Part shown: positions 18,992 through 55,557 of the stretch, in pieces
Numbering within the stretch: position 1 is the stretch's first letter
How the letters are laid out: every line of letters starts with the position of its first letter
From: a virus
Virus record (IMG/VR): IMGVR_UViG_3300042905_003262
Coordinates: 1 to 59,706 of that record
Reading direction: 5' to 3' (one strand)
DNA: 59,706 bases
Notes under the pieces: generated by a model
What the model saw: only the letters and a program-made list of their open reading frames with translations
Told to the model about the DNA's origin: nothing
The model's database searches: none
Made by a program: the position numbers and the translations under genes

Positions 18992-19744
18992 TTAGTTTAC
19001 GTCTGTGAACGTGCCGGAAGTGAAGAAAGCGCCCCAAGTAGTCGCGCTCAAGGCCACAAGTTCGATGGCGTTCCCGATGGTAGCCGCGCTCGAAATGGCA
19101 TCCCCGGCGGCATTGGTGAGCGCGAGGATTTGCGTGCTGTCTGCCGGGTTAATGTCCACGTCCTGCGCGGCGGTGAGATAGACGCGGAATCGCATCCCCA
19201 CCTGTGGAGCCGGGAGAGTCAGGACTATCGCGCCGGACGCTCCAGTGTTGATAAACGTGCTGCCGTAAAGCTGGTCTGCCGTCAGGGTCGCGGTAGTGGC
19301 CTGCGTGATGACACGTTGAACATGGTTTCGAGCCAAGATATGCCACGAGCTTTGCCCAGCTTGCAGGAAAACAGACTCGTTCGGGCTGGAGAGCGTAATC
19401 GTCGTGGTGCCGTCGATGGTTTCACTGCCGCTGCCGTCAATCGTGATGGCGTTTGCCGTGCTGTCGTTCTTCTGGATGCAGATGATCTGATTCGTCTGAT
19501 TCGTCCCAGCGGGCAGGAGGCCGATGGTGAAGGCCGCCGAGGTGGCGTTGGCGAGCAGCGTATGGTCAGAGCGCGTCATTGTGTAGGCGGCACTGATGGC
19601 TTTGGCGTTAGCCTTGTAGGCAATGCCGGTGCCGTTCTGCGGATCGGTGATGTTGACGAGGCGCTGAGCGGGGGCGTGACTGCACCAAAGCAGGGCGGTG
19701 GTGAGCACGAGAGCAAACAGGGAGGCGAGGCGAGGGTATTTCAT
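18992..19744 (-). CDS. Exported fibre-like beta protein
   Basis: A 250-residue protein whose N-terminus (MKYPRLASLFALVLTTALL, then WCSHAPAQ) is a convincing signal peptide with likely cleavage after APA. Two copies of a virion-type beta domain follow: residues about 45-140 (LPAGTNQTNQIICIQKNDS, IDGSGSETIDG, SVFLQAGQSSWHI) and about 145-250 (LTLPAPQVGMRFRVYLTA, AIELVALSATTWGA). These domains occur in phage tail and head fibres. A fibre-like protein with an export signal is odd, and suggests a secreted or envelope-attached role. The cysteine at about residue 21 is not in a canonical lipobox. Confidence 0.7.
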   Translation of the reverse strand: MKYPRLASLFALVLTTALLWCSHAPAQRLVNITDPQNGTGIAYKANAKAISAAYTMTRSDHTLLANATSAAFTIGLLPAGTNQTNQIICIQKNDSTANAITIDGSGSETIDGTTTITLSSPNESVFLQAGQSSWHILARNHVQRVITQATTATLTADQLYGSTFINTGASGAIVLTLPAPQVGMRFRVYLTAAQDVDINPADSTQILALTNAAGDAISSAATIGNAIELVALSATTWGAFFTSGTFTDVN

Positions 19745-19952
19745 GGCGATTTTAGGATGGTTTCAGGGTGCGCTGGAGTATTCAGGAGCGGGGCGGAATG
19801 TCAAGCGCGGGGCATGTTCACGAAAACAGCGGGAATTTCGTGAACAAATGCGTGCTCACTGTCAGCACGTTCCCGTGCTTGCTGTCAAAGTAGCGCAAAA
19901 GCGCCCACATTGGGCGAATCGACTCCCTGAACCGGTCAGGGGAGTGACATTT

Positions 19953-19984
19953 GGAAAGTCCGCGCCGGTTGAGAGGACTTTTTT
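19953..19984 (+). terminator. Terminator-like hairpin within the RNA region
   Basis: AAGTCC (19956-19961) pairs with GGACTT (19975-19980), followed by a run of T to 19984. The stem can be extended with GGAA/TTCC at its base. It may end a short upstream RNA or be part of the larger fold. Confidence 0.45.
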
Positions 19985-20078
19985 CCTGTTGACGATTCGA
20001 GGTGAAGCGGCATTATCGCGCTCACCAAATAGGTTTGCTCTGTGCGAAGGAGTAATCCGCTCCACTGGCAAACCCACT

Positions 20079-20116
20079 GAGGCCGACTTTTTCGCACAAG
20101 GTCGGCCTCTTTGTTT
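20079..20116 (+). terminator. Strong terminator-like hairpin with a kissing loop
   Basis: GAGGCCGAC (20079-20087) pairs perfectly with GTCGGCCTC (20101-20109), and a TTTGTTT run follows. The loop contains TTCGCACA (20091-20098), the exact complement of TGTGCGAA at 20041-20048, so this stem could also form a pseudoknot with the preceding hairpin. It is either a terminator or an internal structural element. Confidence 0.6.
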
Positions 20117-20171
20117 GCCGTTTTAGCGCCAACACTCTCACCTGAAAAGGAGGTCACTTGGCAAAGGTATT

Positions 20172-20304
20172 GAGAGTAGAGTTCAGCGGTGGCGTAATGT
20201 AAATCCGGCATAATCACGTCTAAACCGGGCCTCGCAAAAGGTTCGTAACGCACCGTCGCAAGCGGAGTTACTGGTTCAAGTCCAGTCCGCTGAACTCTAC
20301 TCTC
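20172..20304 (+). ncRNA. tRNA-like domain closed by an 18-bp perfect stem
   Basis: GAGAGTAGAGTTCAGCGG (20172-20189) pairs base for base with 20287-20304. Immediately before the 3' strand is a perfect tRNA T-arm: ACTGG, loop TTCAAGT, CCAGT (20270-20286), stacked on the stem exactly as a tRNA T-arm stacks on its acceptor. T at 20190 matches tRNA position 8, and GGCGT/ACGTC (20191-20220) could be a D-like arm. The interior (97 bases) is too long for a tRNA, there is no anticodon arm, and no CCA follows. A hairpin GTAAC/GTTAC (20245-20271) competes partly with the T-stem. Confidence 0.6.
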
Positions 20305-20306
20305 CG

Positions 20307-20441
20307 AAGGTTGAATTGAGCGGAAGCTATGATACACACCGCCATAGATAGGGGCTTACCCGCCACAGAATGCGTGCCGAACAGTTCGGAACACCACGCA
20401 CCGCAAGCAGACGTTGTTACCTGCCCGCTCAATTCAGCCTT
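20307..20441 (+). ncRNA. Second long-stem RNA domain, multi-way junction
   Basis: A 17-pair closing stem (20307-20323 with 20425-20441, one G-U pair) begins two bases after the previous domain ends. It encloses CTATG/CATAG (20327-20347), GGG/CCC (about 20352-20361), TGCGTG/CACGCA (20371-20400) with inner CCGAA/TTCGG, and GCAG/CTGC (20407-20424). Together these would form a five-way junction. Closing-stem ends GAGCGG/CCGCTC resemble those of the preceding domain (CAGCGG/CCGCTG). Confidence 0.6.
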
Positions 20442-20451
20442 CAAATTCGGC

Positions 20452-20639
20452 GCATGGTGGATCGCAGTTCAGCCATGCAGAAGTCGCTACGGGAAACTGT
20501 AGGGCTGCGCTGAAAGCATTTGAGTCGTGTTCTACTGAGACAGCCGAGCGACGAGTTTTCAGCGGTGCGAAAGCATCAAAGCGATGATCCTGATTCCCGA
20601 CGAAACAGACAGCTTGCAGTTACCCGGCAACGGGACTGC
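20452..20639 (+). ncRNA. Third part of the structured RNA region
   Basis: Helices include GCATGG/CCATGC (20452-20478), CTAC/GTAG (20487-20502), CGCTGAAA/TTTCAGCG (20508-20564), a five-pair stem with a GAAA tetraloop (about 20564-20577), and GCAGT/ACTGC around CCCG-GCAA-CGGG (20616-20639). The last is a textbook GNRA-capped hairpin. The TTCAGC at 20468-20473 could alternatively pair with GCTGAA at 20509-20514. The block ends about 45 bases before the next start codon. Confidence 0.5.
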
Positions 20640-20686
20640 TTTGCTCCGAAGCCATCAAGCCCTCCGAAACATAACTCCAACGACCC

Positions 20687-20866
20687 ATGACCACCGCCCA
20701 AACCGCCATCAAAGCCGCCCGCGAAGCCAGCGACCAGCTTGATTTGCTCCACGTCGAGAAAGCCAAACTGGAGCGCGAGCACGATGAAAAGCTCAAACTG
20801 CTCAACGAGCGCATTTCGATTGAGCGGGCGAGGCTTTCGACGCTTCTAGCCATCGCGGATAAGTAA
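20687..20866 (+). CDS. Small coiled-coil protein
   Basis: A 59-residue protein starting MTTAQTAIKAAREASDQLDL and continuing as one charged helix with heptad-like leucines (EKAKLEREHDEKLKLL, ERARLSTLLAI). The ATG follows CTCCAACGACCC, a form of the genome's start leader. It is the first protein gene after the structured RNA region and heads the rightward block ending at 22174. No family recognised; a short coiled coil can dimerise or act as an adaptor. Confidence 0.6.
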   Translation: MTTAQTAIKAAREASDQLDLLHVEKAKLEREHDEKLKLLNERISIERARLSTLLAIADK

Positions 20867-21157: not shown

Positions 21158-21472
21158 ATGCAAGACCAACAACCCCGAATGCTCCGCCTGACGCTCAAAC
21201 GCCAGTGGTTCGACATGATCGCAAGCGGCGAGAAAAAGGAGGAATACCGCACGCCTGGAAAGTGGATTCTCTCGCGCCTTGAAGGCAAAGAATACGATTA
21301 CGTCGAGTTTAAGAATGGTTACGGCCCCAATGTGCCAACTATGGTGGTTCAATACATAGGCTGGAAATACTCGCACGGGAAACGCGAATGGGGCGGTGGC
21401 TCGACTACGGGGGCGTTTGCCACGATCATGCTAGGCCGCGTCCTGTCTGTCAACAATTACGCGAAACTATGA
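21158..21472 (+). CDS. ASCH-domain protein
   Basis: A 104-residue protein with the ASCH signature: MLRLTLKRQWFDMIASGEKKEEYRTPGKW can be read in pieces as LTLKRQWFDMI, SGEKKEEYR and TPGKW, with the strand YDYVEFKNGYG and a C-terminal TIMLGRVLSV. ASCH proteins have a PUA-like fold and probably bind RNA or nucleotides. The GEKxEEYR motif is the family core. It is coupled to the next tiny frame by an ATGA overlap. A second superfamily member, DUF3850, is at 6254-6571. Confidence 0.85.
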   Translation: MQDQQPRMLRLTLKRQWFDMIASGEKKEEYRTPGKWILSRLEGKEYDYVEFKNGYGPNVPTMVVQYIGWKYSHGKREWGGGSTTGAFATIMLGRVLSVNNYAKL

Positions 21473-29666: not shown

Positions 29667-32600
29667 TCATTTGCCGCCGTAGTTCAGGCGTTTTCGCGCT
29701 TCAATAAGTCGTGCCTTCGCCCTCTCGGCTGCATCGTCTTTCATCGGAACGGGGCGCGGTGGAGTGCTTGGAACTGGCATCGAAGGCGCTGGCGACGGCC
29801 TCGCGGAAGGTGTCGAAGGCGCTGCGGCTGGCGTTGTGGTGCCGAAACGCTCCTCGCGGCCCATGGAGCCGCGCACGGACTTGATGGCGTTGGTCCGAAC
29901 CTCTTTGATCGCGTCGATCATCTGCGGCGTGACCGGCTTACCTGGACGCCAACCAGCCGCCATTAGTTTTCTCCCGGCGTAGTCGGAAAACTTCTGGCCG
30001 ATTTCCTGTTCAAACTTAGTGATTTTGGCCGGGTCTTTGAGGGGAACCTGCTGCATCTTGCCGTCCACTTTCGGGCCGTAAACGTAAAGGTCTGCTTTCG
30101 TGAGCGGGTCGGGATTCCATTGCTGGTCCGGGTTGGTGGCGTTCCACTTTTTAAGCGCGGCGTCAAAAAGTTCCGTGCTGGCCTTGGATGCCACCGGGAA
30201 CAGAACGCGAGTGACGGCATTTCCGCCTCGCTGCACTGGCTGCCCGGCCTCGTTGACTTTGGGCTGACCAATGCCGAGCGAGCGGGAAAGCTCCGATTCG
30301 GCCTTTTTAGCGTCGGCGATTTCGTCTTGGCTGAGACGGTAGGGCTGGCGGATTAAATTCGGGATCGCGCCATTCATCAGGTTTTTCATCAAAAGCTCTT
30401 TAGCCGAGAAGTTTTTACTCCCAGCATCTTCATAAAATTGCATAATACCCGAAATGCCTTGCAGGAATGTCTTTTCCTTCGCCTGAGCGAGGACGTGCCG
30501 CATCATGGAACCGGCGAGCTTGTCGGTGGTGCGGTTTTCGGGCTGGAAGCGGGTCCACTCTTTGAACTCGCGAGCACCGTCAACAAGCGTTGAGAGAGCC
30601 AGCGCGATAGGTTCATAGCGCCCATAGGCAAATTGAATGGGTTTATCCAGTTTTTCGCCCGTGAGCGGGTTTTTGCGGATGATGATAAGGTTTGAGCCGC
30701 CCTCTTGCCGGAGCTGGGAGGCGCGTTCACCAGCATTTGCGACACCAAACGGGCGAGAGCCTGTGATTTCGATAGCCTTTTGGTTGTCGTCGTCGTCACC
30801 CTCAGACATTCCCATGACGATGAACCAAAGAGCCGTCGCCATGACGGATTCGGACACGTCTTTGACCATCGCGCCTTCGCGGTAGGATCGGAACTCGTTG
30901 TTATTGCCCTTGATGGCGTAGTAACCCGACTTGCCGAGGCGATAGAGCAGCATTCCGGCGCTTCCGCCTGCTTTGCGGATACCAGCGCGGTAAATGTTGG
31001 TCGGCGTGCGGACGAAGGGGAGCAGGTAGCGCATGAGGCCACCCACGAATTTAGCCCGCTTGAGCGCATTCGTGACGCCTTCAACGGCCTTCGTGATGTC
31101 GTTTTCGTCCTGGAACGTGAGTTCAGTAGCCTTCTCAAAGGCGTGCTGCCACGACTCGGAGCCGTGCGTTGCAATCTGAGACGCCATGAAGTTTGTCAGA
31201 GCCGCGCCTGCCAAGCCCTGTTTTTTGCCGAGTCGATACGCCATAGCGGCGCTTTCGGCGTGCATGATGAGCGTCTTAGCAAAAGCATCCTGGGCGACAA
31301 GGAAACGGCCTGGAACGCGGACGATACGGCCCAAGGTGCCGCCGAAAGAAGGACGGATGCCGCCCACCTTGTCGAGGTTGCCGCCTTGGAACATGACCGT
31401 GACGGGCTTATCGAGATATTGGTGCTCTACCGGGTCAGCCTCCGTGTCCCATGCGAGCGCAAAGTTGCGCAAGGCTGGCATGATGCCTTTGTAGAAACCG
31501 GCCCAAACGTGCCTAAACTCTCCAAACTGCGGAGCGTTGGGATTGCGGATTGCCACATTTGTGGTCGCTTCCGCGAACCACTGCGGCCCGTAGGCCCATG
31601 CGGTTGAGAGCAGGTTAGAAGCCGTGTTGACGACGTGCGTTTGAGGGCCGGACAAAATGCCGTTGATCCAGTATTCATAAGCCTTGTCGAGCTTGGTAGC
31701 CTCGCGGGTGGAAAGCTCGCGGGCGACACGATAGACCTGCTTCCAATCGGCGGCATTATAGGGCACAAACACCTTTTGGGTCTTTTTGCCGTATGTCCAT
31801 GTAGCCTCATGGAGCCAGTTGGAATTTCGCTGCGATTTCGTTGGGATTGCGGTATTAAGAATGGACTGCACTGCTTCCGCTACTTCTTGGGCGCTGGCGT
31901 TTCGCTTCTTAGCCCTCGTGTTTGCAAGGTCTTCGGCAAGATTGCGCCGTTTGCCGCTCGGAGTTGCCCGCAAGGCATCGTCCATCTCGCTAATGATGCG
32001 CTTACCCCACTGGATGAACTTGCTGAACGTGTTACCTTTGCCGACTTCCTTGGAAACGGCCTGCTTCGCTACGACGTTGCGGAAGTGCTCTGCTGTGTTG
32101 CTTACTTCGGCGACCGAAAGCCCGGTTTCCTTCGCGATAGCGTTGTCGGAGTAGCCGCGAACGCTCATTTCGATGGCCTTTTTGTGAGCCGCCGACTGCT
32201 GGGACAGGTGAACACGGGCGAGGCCAAGAATAGCCTCCTGCATGGCGAAACGGTCATCCACGGACAAGAACAGGTCCGTTTGAGTCAGGCCGTTGCGCTT
32301 CAAGATGGCGTCCACCTTGGCGTCATCCTCGCGGGCGAGTTCTTCCATGACCTCGTTTTGATCCTTGCGAGCCTGGGCTTTCTCAAGCTCACGCTGGGCA
32401 CGTTCGCGTTGAAGCGTGTCTTGTGTCGAGGCGAGGCGGCGCTTGAGTTCCTTGATGGCCGCGAGCTTTTCGGCTCCTGACCACACGTTGACGAGTCTTT
32501 CACGCACCGTCTTGGAACTTGGCGAGAGGATATTCCGCATTGCGTTATCAAGGCGCTGTTGCGGCGTCTCGACCTTATCGACACGAGAGCCGAGCTTGCG

Positions 32601-35600
32601 GGCTGTCTCGCTGGCCTCGCGCATATCGGCCATAAAGAGCAGTTTGGCCTTTGTGCGGCTGGCAGGATTGTCGTTGCCGTCGATCCAGAGCACGCGGGCA
32701 ATCATGCGGCGGGCAATGTCTTCCTCAAGCGAGAGGACGATTCCCTCGCGCATCTTGCCGACGATTTGGTTATAGAGGCGGTCAAAGCCTGCCTGTTCGG
32801 CAATTACCTCGTCAACGGCGGCTTCGATCTTCTGGTAAGAGGCCGTTTCGAGTTCCTTGTCCTCGTAGGTCTGGCTCAGTTTGTCCCATGCGTCACGCGC
32901 ACCGGGCAGGTTGGATGCCTGATTGGCGACGTTGCGGCGTGGTTTCTTGCCAGTGTCGCCCTCTTTGACGGTCGGAGTGGCAAAAAGCGCCTGTCCTGCA
33001 TCAACGCTAGTCCGCATTTGCGGCGTGATGTCCACGCGCCAGATGGGGGTGGTTTTAAAATCACCATCGCGAGGAATTGCAGCTAGCTTGTCCGCTTCGC
33101 TCATTGCGTAAAATTCATCGCGTGAAGTTAGCGCGTCGGGATCGACGTATTCAAGCCATGCCGAATAACTACTGACGTATTTTTTCAGGCTTTCTAAATC
33201 CTCAATCTCACCATTCACCACGCCCGCGCCCCACTGCTTCACATACTTGCCAATTTCTTTCGGCAGGATGGTATCGTAGAAGCCCTTCATGCCTTGGCCG
33301 CCGACTTTCAATTCGTCGCCAGAATAGACGCGGTATCCCATTCCTGGCATATCCGCGATGGCCTTCTCTGCTAACTCCTTGCCCACGGTGTCTGCTAGCT
33401 TGGAGTCAGATAATCCAGCTTGTGAAACAGTTTCGGAGCCGCCCTTAATCCCGATTACCGACCATAGCCCGTCTTGTTGCTTGCGGATATTGAGAGAATC
33501 AACCTGCTTACTGAGGTCAAACCGCTCTGCCTGCGTCTCGCCCGTCGTCCAGCCGATCCACTGCTTGCCAGCGGCCACCGCGTCCGCGAGGGCACGCTTG
33601 AACATCTGGAGCGGCCAGGTGGTGCGGAATGGGGCGTCAGGGATTCGAGCATTCGCAATGTTGTCCAATTTGGACGCCCAATCTTTAGCATATTCAATAG
33701 CCTCGTTTTCCGTGTTTTGAGTAGAAATTGGCTTGCCCGTTGATTTTCTAATAACTACCCAATCGCCAATAAATTGATTGTTGGATGGCTCATATTTAAT
33801 CTCGAAAGTATCATTATAATCAACTTCGCCCTGATACCCCTTCTTCCGCCCTGCCTGATGGCGGTCGCTCTGGATTTCCTCGATGAACGTCCCGGCCTGG
33901 CCCTCGGCGTCCGTGCGGTCGTTCACCCGCATGTGGGCGACGTAGTTCGGCACGTCGGGGAAGTGGCTGGAGGTGTATTCAGGTGGTTCGTTGTAGGCTT
34001 CAGCAGGCGTTTCCGTGATGATTTGGAGGCGCTGCGCTTCCGACAAATCGGCCCATTTGGGTTCACCTCCTCGGCGAACAAAGGTTTCGTAATAAGCGGC
34101 TGCCGCATCCGACATCCCACGCCTCGCTATCGGCATCGCCAGCACCACCTCGCGGTAGTTCTCGCCGCCTGAGAGTTGGTATTGGGAGAATTTGGTGTCC
34201 GTAACTTCGGCTTTGTCGTCACGCATGCGGATCAACCGTTCATGCTCGTTTTTCAAACGGGTGATTTCTGGTCCGTTGCGGACTTCGGTAGGCCATTTAC
34301 TGCGATCTTCTCCATAAACATTGGCTGCGTCTTCTCGGTAGATTCGCATTTGACGCGTCACTTCGTTAATTTGACGAACAAGTTCAGGGTCATACCGATT
34401 TCCTAGCTTTCCCCCCATCCGCACCTCCTCCAGCCTCACCGCGCCATCCGTCGCCAGATATTCCAGCACAGCCTGCTTGGTGATCGGTGACGCCTGCGCC
34501 TCAATCCACGGCAGAATCCCGCTCCATTTCAGTTCCTCGGCCTTGATGCCGGTCTGCGGATTGGTGATGAGGCCCTTGATCGTCGCCACGTCGGCGCGAT
34601 TTGGCATCTTTTGCTCGATAACTTGCGCCAGTTTGGAGTAGAAGGGTTCATTTCGGACAGTTGGGCTGGCCTGCAACGGCTCCTCTACGCCATCGGCGCG
34701 GGAGGATTCAGGGTTGCCAAAATACTTCTCCTCGACCAGTTCATTGAGTTCTGGAAAGAACGTGTCCGATAGATCAAGCCATGAAACATCGCCTGAATTT
34801 ATCTTCTCCACATCAAACTCGATGTCGGCGTGCGTAGCGGCGGAGTCGGTGGCTTCGTGATCAGAAACGCGAACATCAAAAGTCACGGTTAGTTTGCCAG
34901 TGTCTTCATCACGGTCCCAAGACAACCCTTCCCGATCTGCCCACACCTCAGCGTTTGGCCCTTGTTCCGTAGGTTCTGCCAAAACTGTGAAATAGGTCGA
35001 ATTGGAGATGCGGCTGCGTCCTGTCTTGATAATTTTGGCACGACTGAATGCAGAATGATAGGTGTCGCCACGCTGCCAGCCGCGACTCTTAACGCGATCA
35101 AGGAAATTGCGGAAGTAACCGGCGGCAATACGGTTTTGCTCTTTGGTGTCTTCTGCTTCTTGGGCAGCTAAGAACTTTGGATTCTCGTAAATCGGCACCT
35201 CCGCCTCAGAAAGACCGCCCGGTGAAGATTGCAACGGCTCCTTAGTCGCGGCCCACTCTTCTAAGATCGTTTCCGGCGTCTCGGTAGCATTTTCGGCAGC
35301 ATCCATGATTTCCGCGTCCGTGATAGGCGCGAGGGTCATTTTGCCGTCTTGGATCGTCACAAGGGGCGCATAGACGCCGCTTTGAACCGCCTGCATGAAC
35401 TCTTGGCGTGTCAGGTCTGGATTCTTCGACTTCGCGGCAGCATAGACGGCGCTGACTCGTGGCGTGTCGCCTTGCTGGCGTTTGGCGGTCACGAAAGCGG
35501 CGTGGAGGTCTGGAATGGAGACTTTGGGGGCGGCAGGGGTGGCTTGGATGGGTGCCACCTTGCGGCTTTCGGCGGAAGGCAGGCTTTTTGCCAAATCCTT

Positions 35601-38600
35601 TGCATTGCGCACCATTACCTCGCGGCCTGACACGTTGCCGGTAATGCTGTGCCAGCGGTTCCACTCATCCACAAACGACCGCGCCTGTTCAGTAACTTCA
35701 TCGGACTTGCCGAGTTTCGAGAACATTCCAGCCAGTCGATTTGTGAGTTGCGAGTTTGTCGTCCGTTTGGTCGCTATAACGTCAAACACATTGCCTGTTG
35801 ATGTCCTAAACGTGGCCGAGAACTCCGTGAAGTCCTTTTTGATGCTGTCCATGAACTCCTGTTGAACATCGGAAGGCTTTTCCTCGCGGCTTTCTGGTTC
35901 TGCGGCCTCATTGACTCCACGCCAATAAATTCCCCCTCCAGACTTTTCCATCACAACCTCAAATAATGCCAAGTTTGGCCCTGACAAAGTGGACAGAATA
36001 GAATCATCGCCCTTCTTGCGGCCAAGTTTTCTATCTGTTCCCCGCTCGATCCACTCGCCGTCAGAATTGCGCGTGACAATGATGCCGCTTGGCGATGTGC
36101 GATAGGTGCGGGCATATTCGGACTGCCTGTATTTATCGGCGGCGGCCTTCGATCTGGCGTTTTCGGCGGCATCTCGACTGGCTGTCTCCTCAACGATTTT
36201 CGCCATGACCTGCCTCCCTTCGTCTCGCGGCATGATGGCAGTTTTTCCTTCGGTGTCCATTTTAGCCAACGCCAGTGATTCGCGGTCTGCGGCTTGATTT
36301 GTGGAGTTGCGTTTTTCCACATAGACGGACGGATCGCCATTCAGGCGGTGAAAATAGACCGCACGGTTGAAGTCGCCCGTTTTAGCACGCTCTTTTGCCA
36401 CTGCTGCTTCAAGAGTCTCCATCATCGTTGTTTGCGCTGATGTAGGCGGAATAATTTCCGTTTCGGGTTCTGCGGCCATCTCGGGGGATTCGGGCGCGGG
36501 GGAGGCCCACTTCTCAAGTCTGACAGCCAGTTCGTCGGCGTTCAGTTGCCAGAACTTCGCATCCATCTCCAAGGCGCGGCGCATGCGGGACGCTGATGCG
36601 GCAATGTTGCGGTTGTAATCTGGCCCTTTGCGCTCGTATGGCGCGGCCATGGCGAGCAATTCCTGTGGTGTCTTGCCTGCAAGTGTCGTGTCAGCCTGGG
36701 TTTTGAGGCTTGCGGCTTGCGGCGTATCTTCCGCAGCAATAGGGGGGACGGTTTCAACCTTCGTATCCCTTTCCGGCATCGTCGGCTCTACGACCTGCGC
36801 CTTGACGCGCATGATGACAACCTCTGCATCTGGCGAGGTGAGCATGATTGGCCCCTCTCCGCGCTCTGTGCCGCTCTTGATGGCAACTTTCTCGTGTCCA
36901 AGTGCGCGAAAACCTGCCAGCGCATCCATGACGAGTTCAGCGTCAAACGAGCCGACCGCCTCGCCGCCTTCTTGAATGTTGTGCTCGTAGGTTTCGAGGT
37001 TCTGGTTGTTCAAGACTTGGCTCTTAACTCCAAGAGAGCCGTCCTGATTGATGGAAATGGCGACGTAAGGCGTCACGTCCTCGCCTTTGCCCCTAGCAGC
37101 CTTGAAATTGACATCACGAGCAAGAGAACTGGCCTGCTTGAGGATTTGCCACAAGCGCCCCGTGTCGATGCCTTTGTGAATCACTGGAATATCGGCAGGA
37201 ACCACGGCTTTCCAGCCTGGAGGGAATTTCCCAAGTTTTTCATTCTCGGACTGGAGGCCGAGCTTGTTGCCCTTGGTGTTGAACAACATCGGATCGTCTG
37301 CCTTGCCAAACCCTTCAAAGGGAATCGTGAATAGCATCTTTCCATTGGTGGCGACAAGCACATCACCAAAGTCTGCTACCTGCATGATTGTTTGGCGCGT
37401 TTCGTCAGTGCTGGCAAACATGCCCGCCACCTTTACAACGTCTGCCTTGCCAAGTTTGCCGCTTTTGAGTGTCGGGATACCAGACTGGCGAATAGGATTC
37501 AGGGTCGGCGCGTCTGCCGATGGCGTTGTTGTCGGAAAACTCTTGGCAATCTTGGCAAAATTCTGGAGCGTCTTCTTGTCGTTCCAAAGGGTAAAAGTGC
37601 CGTCGCCTGGAATCTCGATCACCACCTTGCTTTCAGATGGAACGCTGGCGCGCACAGCCGCTTCAATATCGACTTTTTTGGCTTTGGGGTCGAGATTGTA
37701 TTTCTCGCGCAGTTTCGCCATTGCTATCCCGACATTTGGCGTGGTCGATTTGTCGCTAAGGCCCATCAGTTCAACCAAGTCTTTGCGAACGTCGCCAAGT
37801 TTGGCCTCGTCCGGCGCTGCCGCAATAGCATCGTCCAGTTTTTCGAGAAGATAGGTCTTCATGGCCCGCAACGCCTTTGTGTCGGCGGGCTTCTTTTCCT
37901 TCACAGGCTCCGGCATCGCCTCTTCCTTGGCTACGGCGGCAGCTTGGGGCGGTGTGAGGTCTGGCAGGGCGGCTAGTTGCGTGGAAACTTTGTCTTTTTC
38001 CGTTCCCATGCCTTTTCGCAGAGTGTAGCGAAGGGCTTCGCGCAACTCGTTGTAAATCTTCTGGTGTGGGGTGTTGAAAATTAGCTGCCCGTCTGCGGTC
38101 TTGGCTCCGACATCTTGCACTAGCTGCATCACGGCCTCCGTGTCGGCCTGATTGACAGCCAAGCGGATTACACGTTGCGGCATGTCCACGCGGCTTTGTT
38201 GGCTAGCGTTCATACCTAGCCACTCGCCAACGAATTGAGCCAGCGGCGAGGCGTAAGGCTCGGACTTGGTTTCTGCTGCGGCTGGCTCGGTATCATTTGA
38301 TACCTCGCGGGTGGTTTCTGACTCGGTGAACGCGGCCTTGATTTTTGCAAAGTCCACATTGCCGTTTTCAGGGTTCATTGCCCCCAACTTGGTCAATCCT
38401 TGCTGCCACTTCGGAGACATGCCGCCTTCAAACTTGGCAGTCTTGCCGCTAATGAAGTCAGCCAGCTTTGCAGTGTTGTAGGCATTGGCAAACTCGTCTC
38501 CAAATATTTCGTTGATCCACGCTACCGCCTTAGAGTCGGCATTGGCAATTAGAGAGCGATCAGATGCCAGTTTATCAGCCTCTTTAGATGCTTGGCTCGA

Positions 38601-41600
38601 TTCCCTTGCCTGTGACTCAGACTCGAAAATAACCGTCTGGAGCATCCTGAGGGCATCAGAATCCATGATGGTGAGTTCCGACTGCAAACGCTCGCCCTTC
38701 TGGTTCATGCGCGACGGCTTTAGACCTGCGTCAGTAAATGCGGTGTGCATCATGTCGCGCTCGTCAATCGTCCAACGGGTGTTGAAGCCCGGCTTCACTA
38801 AACGATCCTTGCGAAGCGTCCATGTTTTGCCATAGCCATCCATCAACGCGACGATTTTTGCGCGGAGTTTAGCAAAGTTTTCTTCGTAGGCTGCATTAAG
38901 TCGTTTCCGTGCTGCCGCATTCGCGTCCTCGGTGGAAACTTCTTCATCCTCCTCTTTCACGAGCATTTGACTGTCACCAAACGGAACACCGTTCAAAACC
39001 TGCTGGTCGGTGAGCTTACTGATGCTGTAGAGGCCATAGAGCGAGTCGCCAATCTTGAACAATCCTGGTAGAACCTTCGTCACGGGCGCATTGCCCCCGT
39101 AGTAGGCGCGAAACCACTTGGAAACCATTTCCTCTGTCACGGGAATGTTCGCCTCTGCGGTTGCGGGCGTGTCGGCTTTGGCTTTCGATTTGGTAACTAC
39201 ATCCAGCGCAGCCTTAATGTCGTCGGGGTGCTCCGTAACAAGAATAGCATCAATCTTCGCCGATGACGGTTGGCGCAAGAGTTCCTTATTGAGTTGCGAA
39301 AGCTGATTGGCGCTCAGTTTATCGAGACGATCTTTGTTGTTGACTGTCAAGGCGTCGAGTCGTGCGCTTTCCTCGTCGGAGATGATGCCGGTTGGCGGCT
39401 GATTGGCCCCTAGAAACTCAATGGCGCGTTGCAGCGTCTCGAATGGCATTCCGCCGACAAGCTCTGCGCCGGATGGCGTGTCATAGGCATGGAAGATGGG
39501 GCTGCCGCGAATACCAGTCTTCTCAACGATCACGAACTTGGCATCTCGATACGCTTCGGTAGCGCCTCTCTTGATGGCCCTGGACAACTCGGTTGATTTG
39601 CCTTCGTCCTGCTCATTCGCGAAAGCTGGAGCCGCCCCCTGTTCAGGAGACGACTCCGTAACTCCTTCCGCGCTTGGTGGACGAGATGAAACTTGGTCAA
39701 GCTCCCCGTAGATCGTAGGCCAGTGCGGATTCTCTTCGAGCGTCGAGTCAAAGCCAGACATCAAGCGCCAGAAAGCTCTGGTGTACTGCCGGAGTGCGCC
39801 ATTCGGAGCAAGTTTGTCGAGCCGTTGCGCCAGTTCTTCCGGCTTGCGAAGTCCGAGATCAATCAAGGTGCTCGCAGCCTTCATCATGGCATCGCGTCGA
39901 TCCTTGGGCAGGTCAGACTGAGCCAATGGCTTTACGGTCGGAGATGCGAACAGGCCAGCAAATGCTTCACCAAGGGCAGCATCGCCTTCGTCCATTTCCT
40001 GCGCTTTTGGCGCTTCTGCTGTCGGTTTGGCGACTTCGGGGGCAGGCGACTCCAGTTTCCACCCTCCAACGGCGGCTTGCGGCTCAACATCGCCTTCGTT
40101 CTCGCCTTCCATGCCCATGACTGGCGTTTCACCCTCAAACGAGATGACTGGCCCCATGCTGCCCTGACTGTCCATGATGATGTCGCCAATCTTGACGGTT
40201 GGGCTATCAAGGTCGGTGCGTTCCCGCTTCTTGGGCGGAGTTGAGTCATTTGGCAGGGCGTTCACCTCGGCCATGGTCATGCCTGAAACCTTTGCGACCT
40301 GCGCAGGCTCCATGCTGGTCTTATCTGGCCCAATCTGAACGTCAAAATTGCCGCCTCCTGTCCGATAAAGCACAAGCATGGGTGTTCCGTTGCGAGTCTT
40401 GCCACGCCACACGGCTGGCGTCTTGAGGAAGGCTAGGCGCTTTTGCCACGCCTCTAGGCGCTTGCCCGCCGCCTGCATGGATTCGGTCATTTCTGGCGGC
40501 GTTCCAGCGCGAGGCTTACCGTTCTTGAAGAAGTACTTGGCAGCGCGGGCGTTGTGATCTGCCACCATTTGAGCCAGAGCCTTCTCTTGAGCCTCAACGG
40601 TTGCCTCGCCTTTCGTCATCGTTTTGGCGTTTGTTGGCATTGTGCTACCGCCTTCGGTCATCACCTGCATGAACCCTTGCGAGTTTGGCGGCGAAATGAC
40701 GATGAATTGATTACCATTCGCGTCCGTAGCCGCATCACCGACAGTCCAGCCTGCCTCATCATTGCCACTTGACTCTTTCTCAGTATTGATAGAAACTGGA
40801 TTCGCAACGGTTGTTGACGACCCTTCAACCGGCTTACCGGAAGTGCTCACGGCCCCGGCGTTTTGAGTTTGCGCAGGCTCAGCGTCGGGGCTGATGCTTT
40901 TCTCGAAGGCGTCGAGGGCATCCGAGACGAGCTTAATGTCTTGATCCACCTGGGCAATCAGGTCATTCCGGGCGGACTCGGACTTGATGCTCGCGAACTG
41001 CTTCCGCAAGTCTCTCAAAAGTGCGAGAACGTCGTCAAGAAACTTGCGCCACTTGTCGGCGAGGTCTTTACCGATGACCTGCTCCGTCATGGTGCCGTCC
41101 TTCATAGCTTCGAGCATGGCGCGATAATACTCGTGGCCGCCGTGGTCTGGATTGAGCGGCTTCGGTTCGAGATCGCGAGCAACACGGCGAACCGAATATG
41201 CCTTCTCGATCTTCTTTTGGACATCTTCTGGAAGCTGGCCCCAAATGTCTTTCACGCGGGCGTCGCCAAGCTGCTCAACTACGAACTTGTGAATCAGCTC
41301 GTGGCGGAAGAATTGGCGGGCCTGAGCAGCGGCGTTGTCGGCGTCGGTGGAATCGCCAACAAAACGAGCCAATGCCGTCTCGGGATTGATAATCAACGCC
41401 TGTTCACGGCGGCCCCATGCGAAGTCAAAGGCCGGATCATCGGTGAGCACAATGGGGAGATGCCCATTGTAGCGGCGCAGACCATCAATGATGGCCTTGG
41501 CGGCAGCGGTGGCTTTGGGCTTATCGCCAGCGGATGCGGCCTGGACAATAGCAGCCATGCGAGCGTGTGCTTGCCCGATGAGTTCGCGGCCTTTGGGCGC

Positions 41601-44600
41601 TTCCGTGTCCACTTCCGCAGGTGCCGTTTCTCCTACTGTCGGGGCGGTTTCGGCGGCTGGAATGTCCGCTTTCGTGGCGGTTTGCGGCTGGCTGGCCTGC
41701 ATGAACTCCGCCAGCGTCGGGGCATAGAAGGATTCACCCTCGCGAACGGCTTTGGCTTGAGTGCGGACAGCCTCGTTGTAGTTCACCAGTATGGTGCGCA
41801 GCACGCCGGGGCCGATCTTCATTTTGGCGGCAAGGCGCGTGATGATGTCTTTCGCGGCTTCCGCATCCGCCATAGAGCCTTTGTCGGTCTGGCTTTTCTT
41901 GATCTTGGCCGCGTAAGCAAAAGCGTCGGCATCGTCTACGGTGGCAAATTCCGCGTAAGACGCTTGGCCTCCTGCGCCTTTACCAATGGCCTTGCGTTGC
42001 AATGGGGGTGCTTTGCCAAGTGCGGGGCGAGTAGCTACTGCTTTAGCGGCTCCCGGCGTCGGTGCAACCTTGGCTTGCCGGTCTGGTGAAGCGCCTTCCA
42101 CCGCCCCCTCCGATGCGGATGGACCCGACTGCACTTTGGGGGCGGTTTCAGGCGCGGGAGCGGGTTGTTTGGCTTGCTTTGGCGTGACTTTCAAGGAGTC
42201 TGCGTGCATGGAGAACTCACCAGATAGATTTGTGTATAAGTAATCCTGTGCGACATTACCTTCAGTGGTGTCTCTCACCACCTTTGATCCATCTAGCTGA
42301 ATCTCAACTCGGCCCGTGCGAGCGTTGCCATTGCCATCTACCCATTCTACGGTATCGCCTTTGTTTAGAGCTTTGAAGAAATCTTCATTAGCCTTTACGT
42401 TGAGCGCAGCCTGCATGTCTTCCCAAGCATCGCGGGTCATCCCAGCGGCTTTTGCAGCGGCTTCTCTTTTTTCTTTTGTTGCTTGGCGGTCTATATCCCC
42501 ATCAGCATCTCTTACAATATAGGATTTTCTTTCAGCATTACGCTTCCGATGAATTTCCGATGGATCGGCTGGCGTTGCTGCTGGCGTGGCGGCGGCTTCT
42601 GGCTCGGAAATGATGGTTGTGGCAGACTTGAGTTTTACCCCATATTTGTCTGCAATCGCTTGAGTATTGTTGTCTGCGAGATGCTTGTCCAAAAATTCAA
42701 GCTCGGCCTCTTCATCTTTGGACAATTGGCGTGAGATAGTGGCAATCGTTTTAGCATCTCCAGCTTTTCCATCTCTCTTCCACGTTAGTTCGTTCTGGCG
42801 ATTTTGCGCGAGCTTGCGAAGGCGGGTGCCAGACATCTCTTGTTTGGGCTTAGGCTTTGGTTTCGGCCTATTGATCGCCTGGATTCGCTCGGCTTCGGAC
42901 TGCCCGATGGTGAGGTCAGGCAACGCGCCCTTGAGCCAGTCGCGGGCCTCATCCGTGATAATGATTTGATCGACTCCGGCCTTGTTTGTGCGGGTATAGA
43001 TGAGCGGCGCGGGAGAATTTGCACCACCGGCAGGAACAAGTTTGCGGTTTTTGTCGAGCTTGACACCAAGTGCGCGCATCTGCGTCTCTGTGAGGGATGC
43101 AGAATCGGTGATTTCGCCGGATGCAATACCGGCCACTGCATCCATGGCAGCGCGAGCTTTGGCGTTGATTCCGCTCTCTTGGCCTTTCGGCACGGTGCGA
43201 ATCACGGCAGGCATCGCTTGGATGGACTCAGGAGCCGTAGGGTTGAAAGCCGCAATCGCAGCCTGAACGGCAGCCCTTTCTTCGGGAAGTGGTCCGGCGT
43301 AGGGATTTGTAGCTTCGGGAGCTTCGGGAGCTTCCGGCGCAATGTCTGGAGGCAAACCACCTGCACGGCGATCCATCCTGTCCTTCAAGGCTTGCATACC
43401 GCCACCCATGAGGCCAGAGGCAACGACAAGCTCAGGCAAGCCGGTGATAAAATCGCGCACTACATCATCAGGATTTCGCCCTTCCGCGTAGCCCTGTGCG
43501 AGCTGCGACATGGCCTCGTCAATGACCTCTTCGGGGATTTCATCAAGCGCACCTTTGGTGATAGCTTTCCCGCTGGACATAAAACCGGCCACCATGGCGC
43601 GGACCGAAGCGCGGGCCTCGGGATTGTTGGCAAGAGCCGTGACACCACCGGGGAAGAGCTTTGTAAGTCCCGCCGTCATGGCTCCGGCTGCGAGCGATGC
43701 AGGCGCAGAGGCTTTCCATGCTTCCATGTGGCTTTTACCCTCGTTGCGAAGGGTGTTGTAAGCCTCACCGTAGAGCGAGCCTGCCGTTTGCGCCCCGCCA
43801 AAGATCATGCCACCTGCCATGGAACCAGTGGCGACCGTGGCAGCGACACCGGGAGCCATGCGGGCAATCGTGCCCGCAATGCTGCCGGCCAAGCCCGTGT
43901 TGGAGAGTTGCTCTTGGGTGTTGACCAGTGAGGCCGCGTTTTCGGCGTTTGCTGCCGCCAATTTAGACCAACCTTCTCCAGCCACAGGAATGTTGCCCGT
44001 CAAAGCCGCAGTCGTGCCGAGAACTGCCTGCGTGACATCCATGAAGCCTGCCGTGACGTTGGAGGCGATCAAATCAGCCCATCGGCGGAAGAACGAACGC
44101 CCCTTCATTTGCTCCTGATACATCAAGGCTTGATCCACGGCATCCATGGCGGCGAATCCGTTCTTGCCGCCTACCTTTTGGTCCTCCTCAATCAAATGGT
44201 CGCGCCATTCGTTGAAATCAGTTCCAAAAGCTGATTGTTTCGCAAAGGCGGTAAGCAAGCCTTCGCCGTATTGGCGACGGTAGGACGGCCAGAGCTTCAT
44301 TGCCTCGGCCTTTTGTTCCGGCGTGCCGTCTGCGGCTTCGATGACTTTCTTGAATGCCTCCTCGTCACCGCCAAGGACAGGATTCGGAATGATGGCACCG
44401 TTTGGCAGCCTGCGAACCGGCTCCAGCATATCCGTAATGCCGAGCTTTTCGCGCAATGGCCGCGTCAATTCGGCGGACTTCTCGGCTTTCTCGGGGTCCA
44501 ACGGACTCGACCAATCAAGTTGACGGCGAGTCTCCATGTAGTTTCGGGCCTCTTTCTCATCAAGTCCCATCTCTTTGACCTTGGCCTTGAAGTTTGCAGG

Positions 44601-53363: not shown

Positions 53364-53558
53364 TTAAAAGTCTGCCGCGCCTTTTCCTGCCTCCCATTGT
53401 GCAAAGGCGCACATGCCGTTGCGGAAACGTGGCTTTCGCTCCTTTTTCGGTGGAGGATCAACCGGCGGGATAGCGAGCATGGCGGCGATTTTGGCCTCCA
53501 GTTGCGCGGCGAGGTCTGGCGGGTCGGGCTGGACAAGTGGGCGAGGAAGAAAGTTCAT
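53364..53558 (-). CDS. Small protein between DnaB and methyltransferase
   Basis: A 64-residue protein, MNFLPRPLVQPDPPDLAAQL and on, with two proline-rich stretches and a basic centre (KKERKPRFRNG). Its ATG overlaps the DnaB stop, and its stop lies five bases before the methyltransferase start, so it is part of that operon. A short helix (AQLEAKIAAMLA) is the only structure expected. No family is recognised; a partner-binding peptide of the helicase or methyltransferase is possible. Confidence 0.6.
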   Translation of the reverse strand: MNFLPRPLVQPDPPDLAAQLEAKIAAMLAIPPVDPPPKKERKPRFRNGMCAFAQWEAGKGAADF

Positions 53559-54876
53559 GGTTCGCGGAATTGAAAGATTGAGCCAAGGAACAAAAGCGGA
53601 AGCTCCCAGTGACGCTTCCCGCCCCGGTTCTTCTCACACCAAAGGTTGCGCTTTTCGTCGTTGAAGCCGGTTTCCGAGTCCTCGTCGGCAAACTTCTTGA
53701 GCATCATCACCTTGTCGGCGTCCTGTCCAATGGCCCGGCTTTCGCGTAGTTTGCCGCTGTCGTTGAGCTGCGAGGCTGTCAGGATGACTTTCCCTGTCCG
53801 GCGAGCCAAACGCTTCTGACGGCGACTGATTGAGGCCAAAACGCCCTCCCGCGTGTCGGACTTCCGGGCGCTGGTATCCTCCATGAGTTGCAAGTAGTCC
53901 ACCACCACCACGGCGGCGTCGCTTCGCTCAATGTCGGCGAAAATGTCGGTCGCGCTAGCGTCCTCAACATCCACAAGCTCAATGGTCGATCTTTGGCGAA
54001 TCTTCGCGCAGGAGGCCGTTAGCGACATCATCTCACCGTTTGTCAGGTCGCCCCGGTAGAGATTGCCGTTATCAACGCGAGCGTGAGAGGCCAGCAGGCG
54101 CAAGGATTGCTCATTGTGCGGCATCTCCAGCGGATACCACCGAACCTTGTGCCCGTCTTCGGCGGCGTTCTCGGCGCAGTTTTGGATGATGGTCGATTTG
54201 CCGTCTCCCGGCTCCCCGGCGAAAACCCAAACTTGCCCAGGCATCATGCCGCCCGTGTGCTTGTCGATAGTCGGAAACCCGGTGCGGATGCCAGGAAGGC
54301 GGCCAGGATTCTCGGCCCGAATCTGGATTTCAGCCAAGAGCGGGTCGATGGCCTCGCGTAGTGACACGCTCTTGAGTAGCTGGCCGGGCATCTTTCCTGC
54401 CTCTTCCATGAGTCCTTTGATGGTGTCGAGCGTTTCGGCCACCTCGCCGTCACGGGCTTGGAACAGGAAATTCAGGCTTCGGGCGTGGGCCTCGATGTGT
54501 TTTCGCTGCCCGTAAAGCTCGCGCAACACGGTCAGGTAGTGGTGAAAGTGCGACGGAATCGGGACGAAGGTGTAAACGTCCGAGACAGCCGCAGCCCCGC
54601 CCACGAACTCCAAACGGCCAAGATTCCGCAGCCGGTGAGTCAGGGAGATGGGATCAATGGGCCGCCCTGCCGTCACCTCGTCAACCATCGTGCAGAAGAT
54701 TTCCCGGCTGACATCGTGATAGAACAGGGCCGGGGGCGTGGCGTGCAGGCAAGTAATCAACCGTTGCGGCTCCTGCATGAAGCACGAAAGCGCCCCGCGT
54801 TCTGCTTCGTCGCTGTATGGCATGGGTTTGTTTAGCCCGGCCAGTAGCTCCTCAACCGTTGCATGTTTTTCTTGGT

Positions 54877-54880
<4 letters not shown>
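53555..54880 (-). CDS. dnaB: DnaB-family replicative helicase
   Basis: A 441-residue enzyme. The N-terminal domain (residues 1-170) has ERGALSCFMQEPQRLI and VSREIFCTMVDE, as in DnaB. The RecA-like core has PGIRTGFPTIDKHTGG, Walker A AGEPGDGKST at 221-230, Walker B VVVVDYLQLM at about 315-324, and SQLNDSGKLRESRAIGQDAD after it. Lengths fit a phage DnaB. The hexamer unwinds DNA at the fork. I chose the ATG at 54880, coupled by ATGA to the DUF1376 gene upstream, over the ATG six bases earlier. Confidence 0.93.

Positions 54881-55557
<677 letters not shown>

Follow-up and report, generated by a model that had tools for sequence, protein, structure and literature searches.

The window analysed here, the whole 59,706-nucleotide (nt) virus stretch IMGVR_UViG_3300042905_003262, carries a noncoding, structured RNA gene on its plus strand, in the gap between a leftward gene that starts at 19744 and a rightward gene that starts at 20687. 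Computation shows that this gene has a conserved promoter, a covarying loop-loop pseudoknot and exchangeable cassettes, and that it occurs in two structurally unrelated phage types. Homologue gathering and a covariation test, both proposed in an earlier note made from the sequence of the window, have been run and point to a member of an undescribed family, outside the GOLLD and ROOL families of Rfam. We consider the product to be an independently transcribed platform RNA that would act in trans, with a probability of about 60%; the best reading, by analogy, is that its manner of working is broadly like that of GOLLD, ROOL or the large RNA of phage ICP1.

A noncoding RNA gene on the plus strand

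A coding signal is absent from the gap (19745-20686). The longest open reading frames (ORFs) within it score -0.17 to +0.04 bits per codon, compared with 0.16 to 0.42 for 15 of 16 control genes, and a Pfam search gave no match for the ORFs inside it. The earlier note had described dense RNA structure without a protein gene, and both parts of this description hold. The plus strand of 19746-20689 (944 nt) folds at -374.7 kcal/mol, compared with -317.3 ± 6.8 kcal/mol for shuffled sequences (z = -8.46), and none of the 20 shuffles was as good; the minus-strand fold of the same region gives z = -4.66. The two stem-closed domains contribute most to this energy, with z of about -6.4 (20172-20304) and about -5.8 (20306-20442). 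Perfect helices do not distinguish the strands, but the 3′ part does, with z = -2.4 on the plus strand and +0.3 on the minus strand. In a sliding scan of short segments, some coding stretches of the window phage reach comparable z, and energy alone is therefore not decisive for an RNA.

A structured RNA read from the plus strand, which the earlier note thought likely, is supported by compensatory changes, G.U-type substitutions and the conserved promoter in addition to the folding energy. Among the near-identical relatives G001-G003, the differences C20426T and A20513G make G-C and A-U pairs into G.U; these changes favour the plus strand because the resulting pairs hold there only. Another argument for this strand, that T-rich runs follow hairpins on the plus strand only, is corrected by a consensus scan, which found terminator-like sites on both strands.

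Relatives and conserved 5′ and 3′ elements

Nine contigs carry the RNA, namely the window, the three near-identical contigs G001-G003 and five distant ones (L262-L266). The distant relatives were found by a scan with an 18-base exact motif from the 3′ part. Because this motif finds only members that keep it, further members of the RNA family probably exist. Four of the five distant contigs extend far enough to reveal that they share a 5′ element (19989-20113); the 3′ element is shared as well (Table 1), while the middle differs. The stretch 19816-19988 is common to none of the more distant relatives; the conserved gene begins at about 20020, and the start at 19816 proposed earlier lies about 200 nt too far upstream. 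The 5′ element begins with TTGACGATTCGAG..GGCATTAT, the plus-strand promoter, whose spacing is identical in all, and the RNA is expected to start near 20023.

The pseudoknot in the 5′ element occurs as three alleles, each perfectly complementary: GUGCGAA/UUCGCAC in the window, GUGGAGC/GCUCCAC in L266 and CUGGUAG/CUACCAG in L262-L264. Such complementarity arises by chance in 0.1-0.6% of shuffles for each allele. In the alignment, the countable kissing columns are 100% paired and include two both-sided changes; as a control, sliding the partners lowers the pairing of the whole to 26-47%. From these alleles, the loop-loop contact, listed earlier as a possibility, is very likely real. The tRNA T-arm and GNRA tetraloops named together with it were likewise found.

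In the 3′ element, only the hairpin 20487-20502 varies enough to test. Its sequence changes from CUACGG-GAAA-CUGUAG to CUAGGU-UCAC-GCCUAG in G003 with all six pairs kept, and this second allele is also present in L262, L264 and L266; the pair types are CG/GC, GC/GU and GC/UG, and no pair is broken. In G002, the loop of the last hairpin changes from GCAA to GCGA. Compensatory changes were thus found in the pseudoknot, in hairpin P3, in the hairpin 20487-20502 and in the closing stem of cassette A, in each case among few sequences.

Table 1. Features of the RNA gene and of its immediate neighbours, in window coordinates.
Feature	Position	Strand	Basis and occurrence
Promoter TTGACG-16-CATTAT	19989..20016	+	Consensus scan; same spacing in four distant relatives (alignment)
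Outer stem P1 (20032-20038 with 20068-20074) around a small hairpin	20032..20074	+	All five distinct sequences; one mismatch in L262-L264
Loop-loop pseudoknot, 20042-20048 (GUGCGAA) with 20091-20097 (UUCGCAC)	20042..20097	+	Three complementary alleles in relatives
Hairpin P3, terminator-like, loop is the pseudoknot partner	20079..20109	+	Compensated changes in relatives
Module C, small hairpin domain before the cassettes	20111..20171	+	Also in L264 (before A′/B′) and L266 (before B″)
Cassette A, perfect 18-pair closing stem, tRNA-like arm order	20172..20304	+	T-arm 20270-20286 flush with the stem
Cassette B, 18-pair closing stem (one U.G), four inner arms, no T-arm	20306..20442	+	Outer arms recur in L264 and L266
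3′ element with GNRA hairpins	20443..20646	+	91-97% identity in five distant relatives (L262-L266); pair counts; strand-specific z
Neighbour outside the RNA: promoter of the leftward structural gene, TTGACA-16-AATACT	19777..19804	-	Consensus scan
Neighbour: small rightward gene, 59 amino acids	20687..20866	+	Positive codon score; replaced or absent in G002 and L262-L266

Exchangeable cassettes in the middle

The layout of the window is promoter, 5′ element, C, A, B and 3′ element. That of L266 is promoter, 5′ element, C, B″ and 3′ element, and in L262 and L263 a short arm alone stands between the 5′ and 3′ elements behind the promoter. L264 contains C-A′-B′, followed by a separate unit of promoter, 5′ element, short arm and 3′ element. 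The forms without cassettes measure about 380-430 nt. The two domains that the earlier note saw closed by 17- and 18-pair stems do exist, with 18 pairs in both. The outer arms of cassette A (GAGAG[UC]AGAGUUCA) recur in L264 around an unrelated interior, and those of cassette B (GAAGG[UC]UGAAUUGAGC) recur in L264 around a tRNA-like interior and in L266 around a different interior. Between members, the stem of cassette A shows a change from U-A to C-G; cassette B of L264 has one C.A mismatch. Cassettes A and B have 5′ arms that agree in 13 of their 18 positions, which suggests that the two arose by duplication.

The T-arm of cassette A (5-pair stem, TTCRANY loop) resembles that of phage tRNA genes and is the sole example with a full stem on both strands of the 59.7 kb, and the remaining arms are ordered as in a tRNA with a long variable arm. 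The window cassette has no anticodon-like loop, and neither ARAGORN nor Rfam calls a tRNA in it. Cassette B of L264 shows a nearly complete tRNA outline on its 18-pair stem, scoring 28.8 bits against the Rfam tRNA (RF00005) cut-off of 29. Judging from these outlines, some of the cassette sequence, if not all, derives from tRNA.

Other tRNA-like RNAs were encountered in phage genomes. Unannotated RNAs with a 15-17-pair acceptor stem lie in phage tRNA arrays in L172 (5888-5996, plus strand) and L260 (2466-2574, minus strand). Their interiors are near-identical and seven stem pairs differ, two of them on both sides, with all pairs kept; neither ARAGORN nor Rfam calls a tRNA there. They share with cassette A the long acceptor stem and the T-arm, and their D-region starts with UGGCG; unlike the cassettes, they stand alone in tRNA arrays, and their interior is unalignable with cassette A beyond the T-arm. 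Such extended-acceptor tRNA-like RNAs are possibly an overlooked class in phage genomes. Phage RNAs of about 110 nt in L228, L231, L236, L247, L249 (523-632), L251 (958-1067) and L243 (3294-3401) combine a tRNA acceptor with a D-arm and a T-arm, the anticodon arm being replaced by about 50 nt, and the four that were scanned score 42-47 bits with the Rfam tRNA model. In Vibrio phage 2.275.O (MG592671; L227, 668-1120), an intergenic stretch without annotation contains a series of unusual tRNA-like units that have T-arms and outer arms matching one another (GCAGC..GCTGC, ACAGC..GCTGT); ARAGORN finds no tRNA there.

Searches for known families and further homologues

At gathering thresholds, Rfam 15 has no match in the whole window, and a permissive scan of the region with all Rfam families gave chance-level matches only. 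The GOLLD (RF02032) covariance model has no match at E<=10 in the window and none in permissive scans of the region and the homologues. The ROOL (RF03087) model likewise has no match at E<=10 in a search run without a positive control, and the permissive scan with all families agrees. For the homologues, Rfam gave a single borderline tRNA and otherwise the same null outcome. ARAGORN found no tRNA in the window or in L262-L266; its calls at lowered thresholds were discarded as noise.

Motif searches with cassette A returned tRNAs and unrelated tRNA-like RNAs, with no further homologue among the matches listed. One candidate, L142, has a 19-pair stem and the same 97-nt spacing; its T-stem is broken and it falls within a protein-coding gene of a different phage, and it was dismissed as a chance match. 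A pattern scan of prokaryote genomes gave tRNAs or candidates without the long stem, and phage and plasmid records matched nothing beyond tRNA T-arms. Nothing was found by a terminase search of prokaryote genomes or by a search of 291 genomes of one phylum. The neighbourhoods of the phrog_625 gene (window 21158-21472) in other phages contain no such RNA, and G004, whose terminase is 58% identical, has no noncoding stretch in the same slot.

Platform RNA model and alternatives

In the favoured model, a promoter of its own would drive plus-strand transcription of the RNA, opposite in direction to the late structural genes beside it. A constant 5′ element, with its hairpins locked by the loop-loop pseudoknot, and a constant 3′ element would form the platform. 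The exchangeable middle would consist of a short arm or of one or two cassettes, each with a long closing stem whose outer arms are conserved and whose interior is replaced, and some cassettes would be a tRNA body on a lengthened acceptor stem. The RNA would be stable and act in trans during infection, the platform conferring stability and the cassettes specificity. We tentatively suggest, as the most likely single function, a decoy or sponge for tRNA-binding or tRNA-cutting factors of the host, because this idea fits the tRNA-derived cassettes and their exchange. With similar caution, unrelated phages sharing a host may trade tRNA-like and other modules at the conserved arms, the scaffold showing changing decoys to host tRNA-targeting or RNA-binding defence. 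Phage tRNAs are described as a known means of evading tRNA-targeting defence (PMC10264068).

Several observations weigh against this model. Few distinct sequences stand behind the compensatory changes: the alignment has five rows, and its pair-count score is reached by 14 of 500 shuffles. The 3′ element is near-invariant, so most of its pairs give no test, and its terminal hairpin (20616-20639) loses pairs in some members in this alignment. A terminator-like hairpin, P3, lies within the RNA, and the small gene of the window follows the RNA without a clear terminator, which makes a leader role possible. As for the decoy, cassette B of the window and cassette A′ of L264 are not tRNA-like, and the idea leaves them uncovered.

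Among the alternatives, a particle RNA of the GOLLD/ROOL kind, in which kissing loops and tetraloop contacts build a closed multi-copy cage with the variable middle as an inward linker, is unlikely, although the constant 3′ element, the variable middle, the conserved kissing contact and the GNRA loops are all present here. In such a cage, two molecules might touch through the pseudoknot, but its loops are separated by about 45 nt of a single chain, which makes an intramolecular contact the simplest; the cassette-free forms are small, and neither sequence nor model matches GOLLD or ROOL.

Slightly less probable is a row of separate small RNAs, in which an RNA of about 95 nt ending at P3 is followed by processed, extended tRNA-like units and then by a 3′ RNA. 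Long perfect stems are good RNase III substrates, and the internal terminator-like hairpin, the position of C-A′-B′ in L264 apart from the promoter-5′-3′ unit and the lone extended-acceptor RNAs in the tRNA arrays of other phages would all suit such a row. However, the 5′ and 3′ elements occur together and in the same order in L262, L263, L264 and L266, which suggests one molecule.

A cis-acting leader or attenuator appears improbable. Here, P3 would be an intrinsic terminator whose loop pairs upstream, with the remainder forming a long leader of the small rightward genes that come next in the window, L264 and L266. P3 is terminator-like, and the segment GCAAACC at 20068 has two possible pairings, one upstream and one with GUUUGCC on the downstream side of P3. 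The genes that follow are not conserved, however; in L262 and L263 no gene adjoins the RNA (that of L263 is followed by a terminator-like hairpin), and a leader would need neither a 3′ element conserved over 200 nt nor cassettes that are swapped. A DNA-level feature, either inverted-repeat cassettes that are mobile or a structured site for recombination or packaging, is very improbable. Conserved arms around replaced interiors do look like terminal inverted repeats, but the T-arm abuts the stem exactly, a pseudoknot and multi-arm interiors would be senseless as DNA ends, and both the structure and the substitutions of G.U type point to the plus strand.

Genomic setting

In the window, the RNA is divergent to the leftward gene 18992-19744, which has a weak tail/baseplate match. 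In L276, the contig of L266, it lies between the genes for an HTVC010P-like major head protein and a protease, on the opposite strand. By comparison of its carriers, the RNA has moved between unrelated phages. A DnaB fragment in L265 (3-359) is identical over 118 residues to that of the window (53555-54886), while the terminases and structural genes differ. The identity of this fragment despite a different terminase and head-tail adaptor in L265 indicates a recent exchange and makes a common host probable.

Several further features of the window were noted. A palindrome, TGTTCACGAAA-10-TTTCGTGAACA (19815-19846), stands just upstream of the leftward promoter (19804-19777); because its half-sites are about two DNA turns apart, it may be an operator of late genes and not an RNA element. 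Between the window and the otherwise near-identical G001 and G003, the leftward gene is not alignable in its 3′ half (18993-19408), which points to an exchange of modules in what may be a receptor-binding protein. The small rightward genes (20687, 20887 and 21158) have no purine-rich ribosome site and show a common leader like CAACGACC(ACC)ATG. On the minus strand, one ORF of 5470 amino acids (29667-46079) occupies more than a quarter of the contig, and G004 shares two parts of it.

Comparison with known systems

To our knowledge, GOLLD, ROOL and similar large phage RNAs have no known function. The present family combines small size and comparative simplicity (about 400 nt without cassettes) with a modular build, and in natural variants the middle is missing or swapped. 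Its modularity, covarying pseudoknot and middle variants therefore make the role of such RNAs directly testable.

The resemblance to GOLLD and ROOL that the earlier note pointed out is real as regards size, complexity and phage context, and the combination of a constant 3′ region with a variable part is a further likeness; the resemblance does not extend to the covariance models. GOLLD is also large, ornate and phage-borne, with kissing loops, GNRA loops and a conserved 3′ region beside a less conserved part; the likeness is by analogy only, as the sequences are unrelated. The window RNA differs in sequence from GOLLD, without a model match, and carries stem-closed exchangeable cassettes. A 14-mer cage is characteristic of GOLLD. 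GOLLD is often near tRNA islands, whereas the ARAGORN searches show none here; its level rises during lysis (PMC12286853). ROOL is similarly a large ornate RNA of phages and prophages, and its model does not match. The ICP1 RNA of about 800 nt is the most abundant ICP1 transcript and comes from an ORF-less kilobase of a lytic phage (PMC7567579). Like the window RNA, it has no Rfam match above the cut-off, but it shares no sequence similarity, lacks a T-arm and has a fold z of only -2.3; its transcription is known, whereas that of the window RNA is predicted. With tRNA (RF00005), the cassettes share a T-arm flush with an acceptor-like stem and, in cassette B of L264, the tRNA outline, but their stem has 18 pairs and they sit inside a larger RNA.
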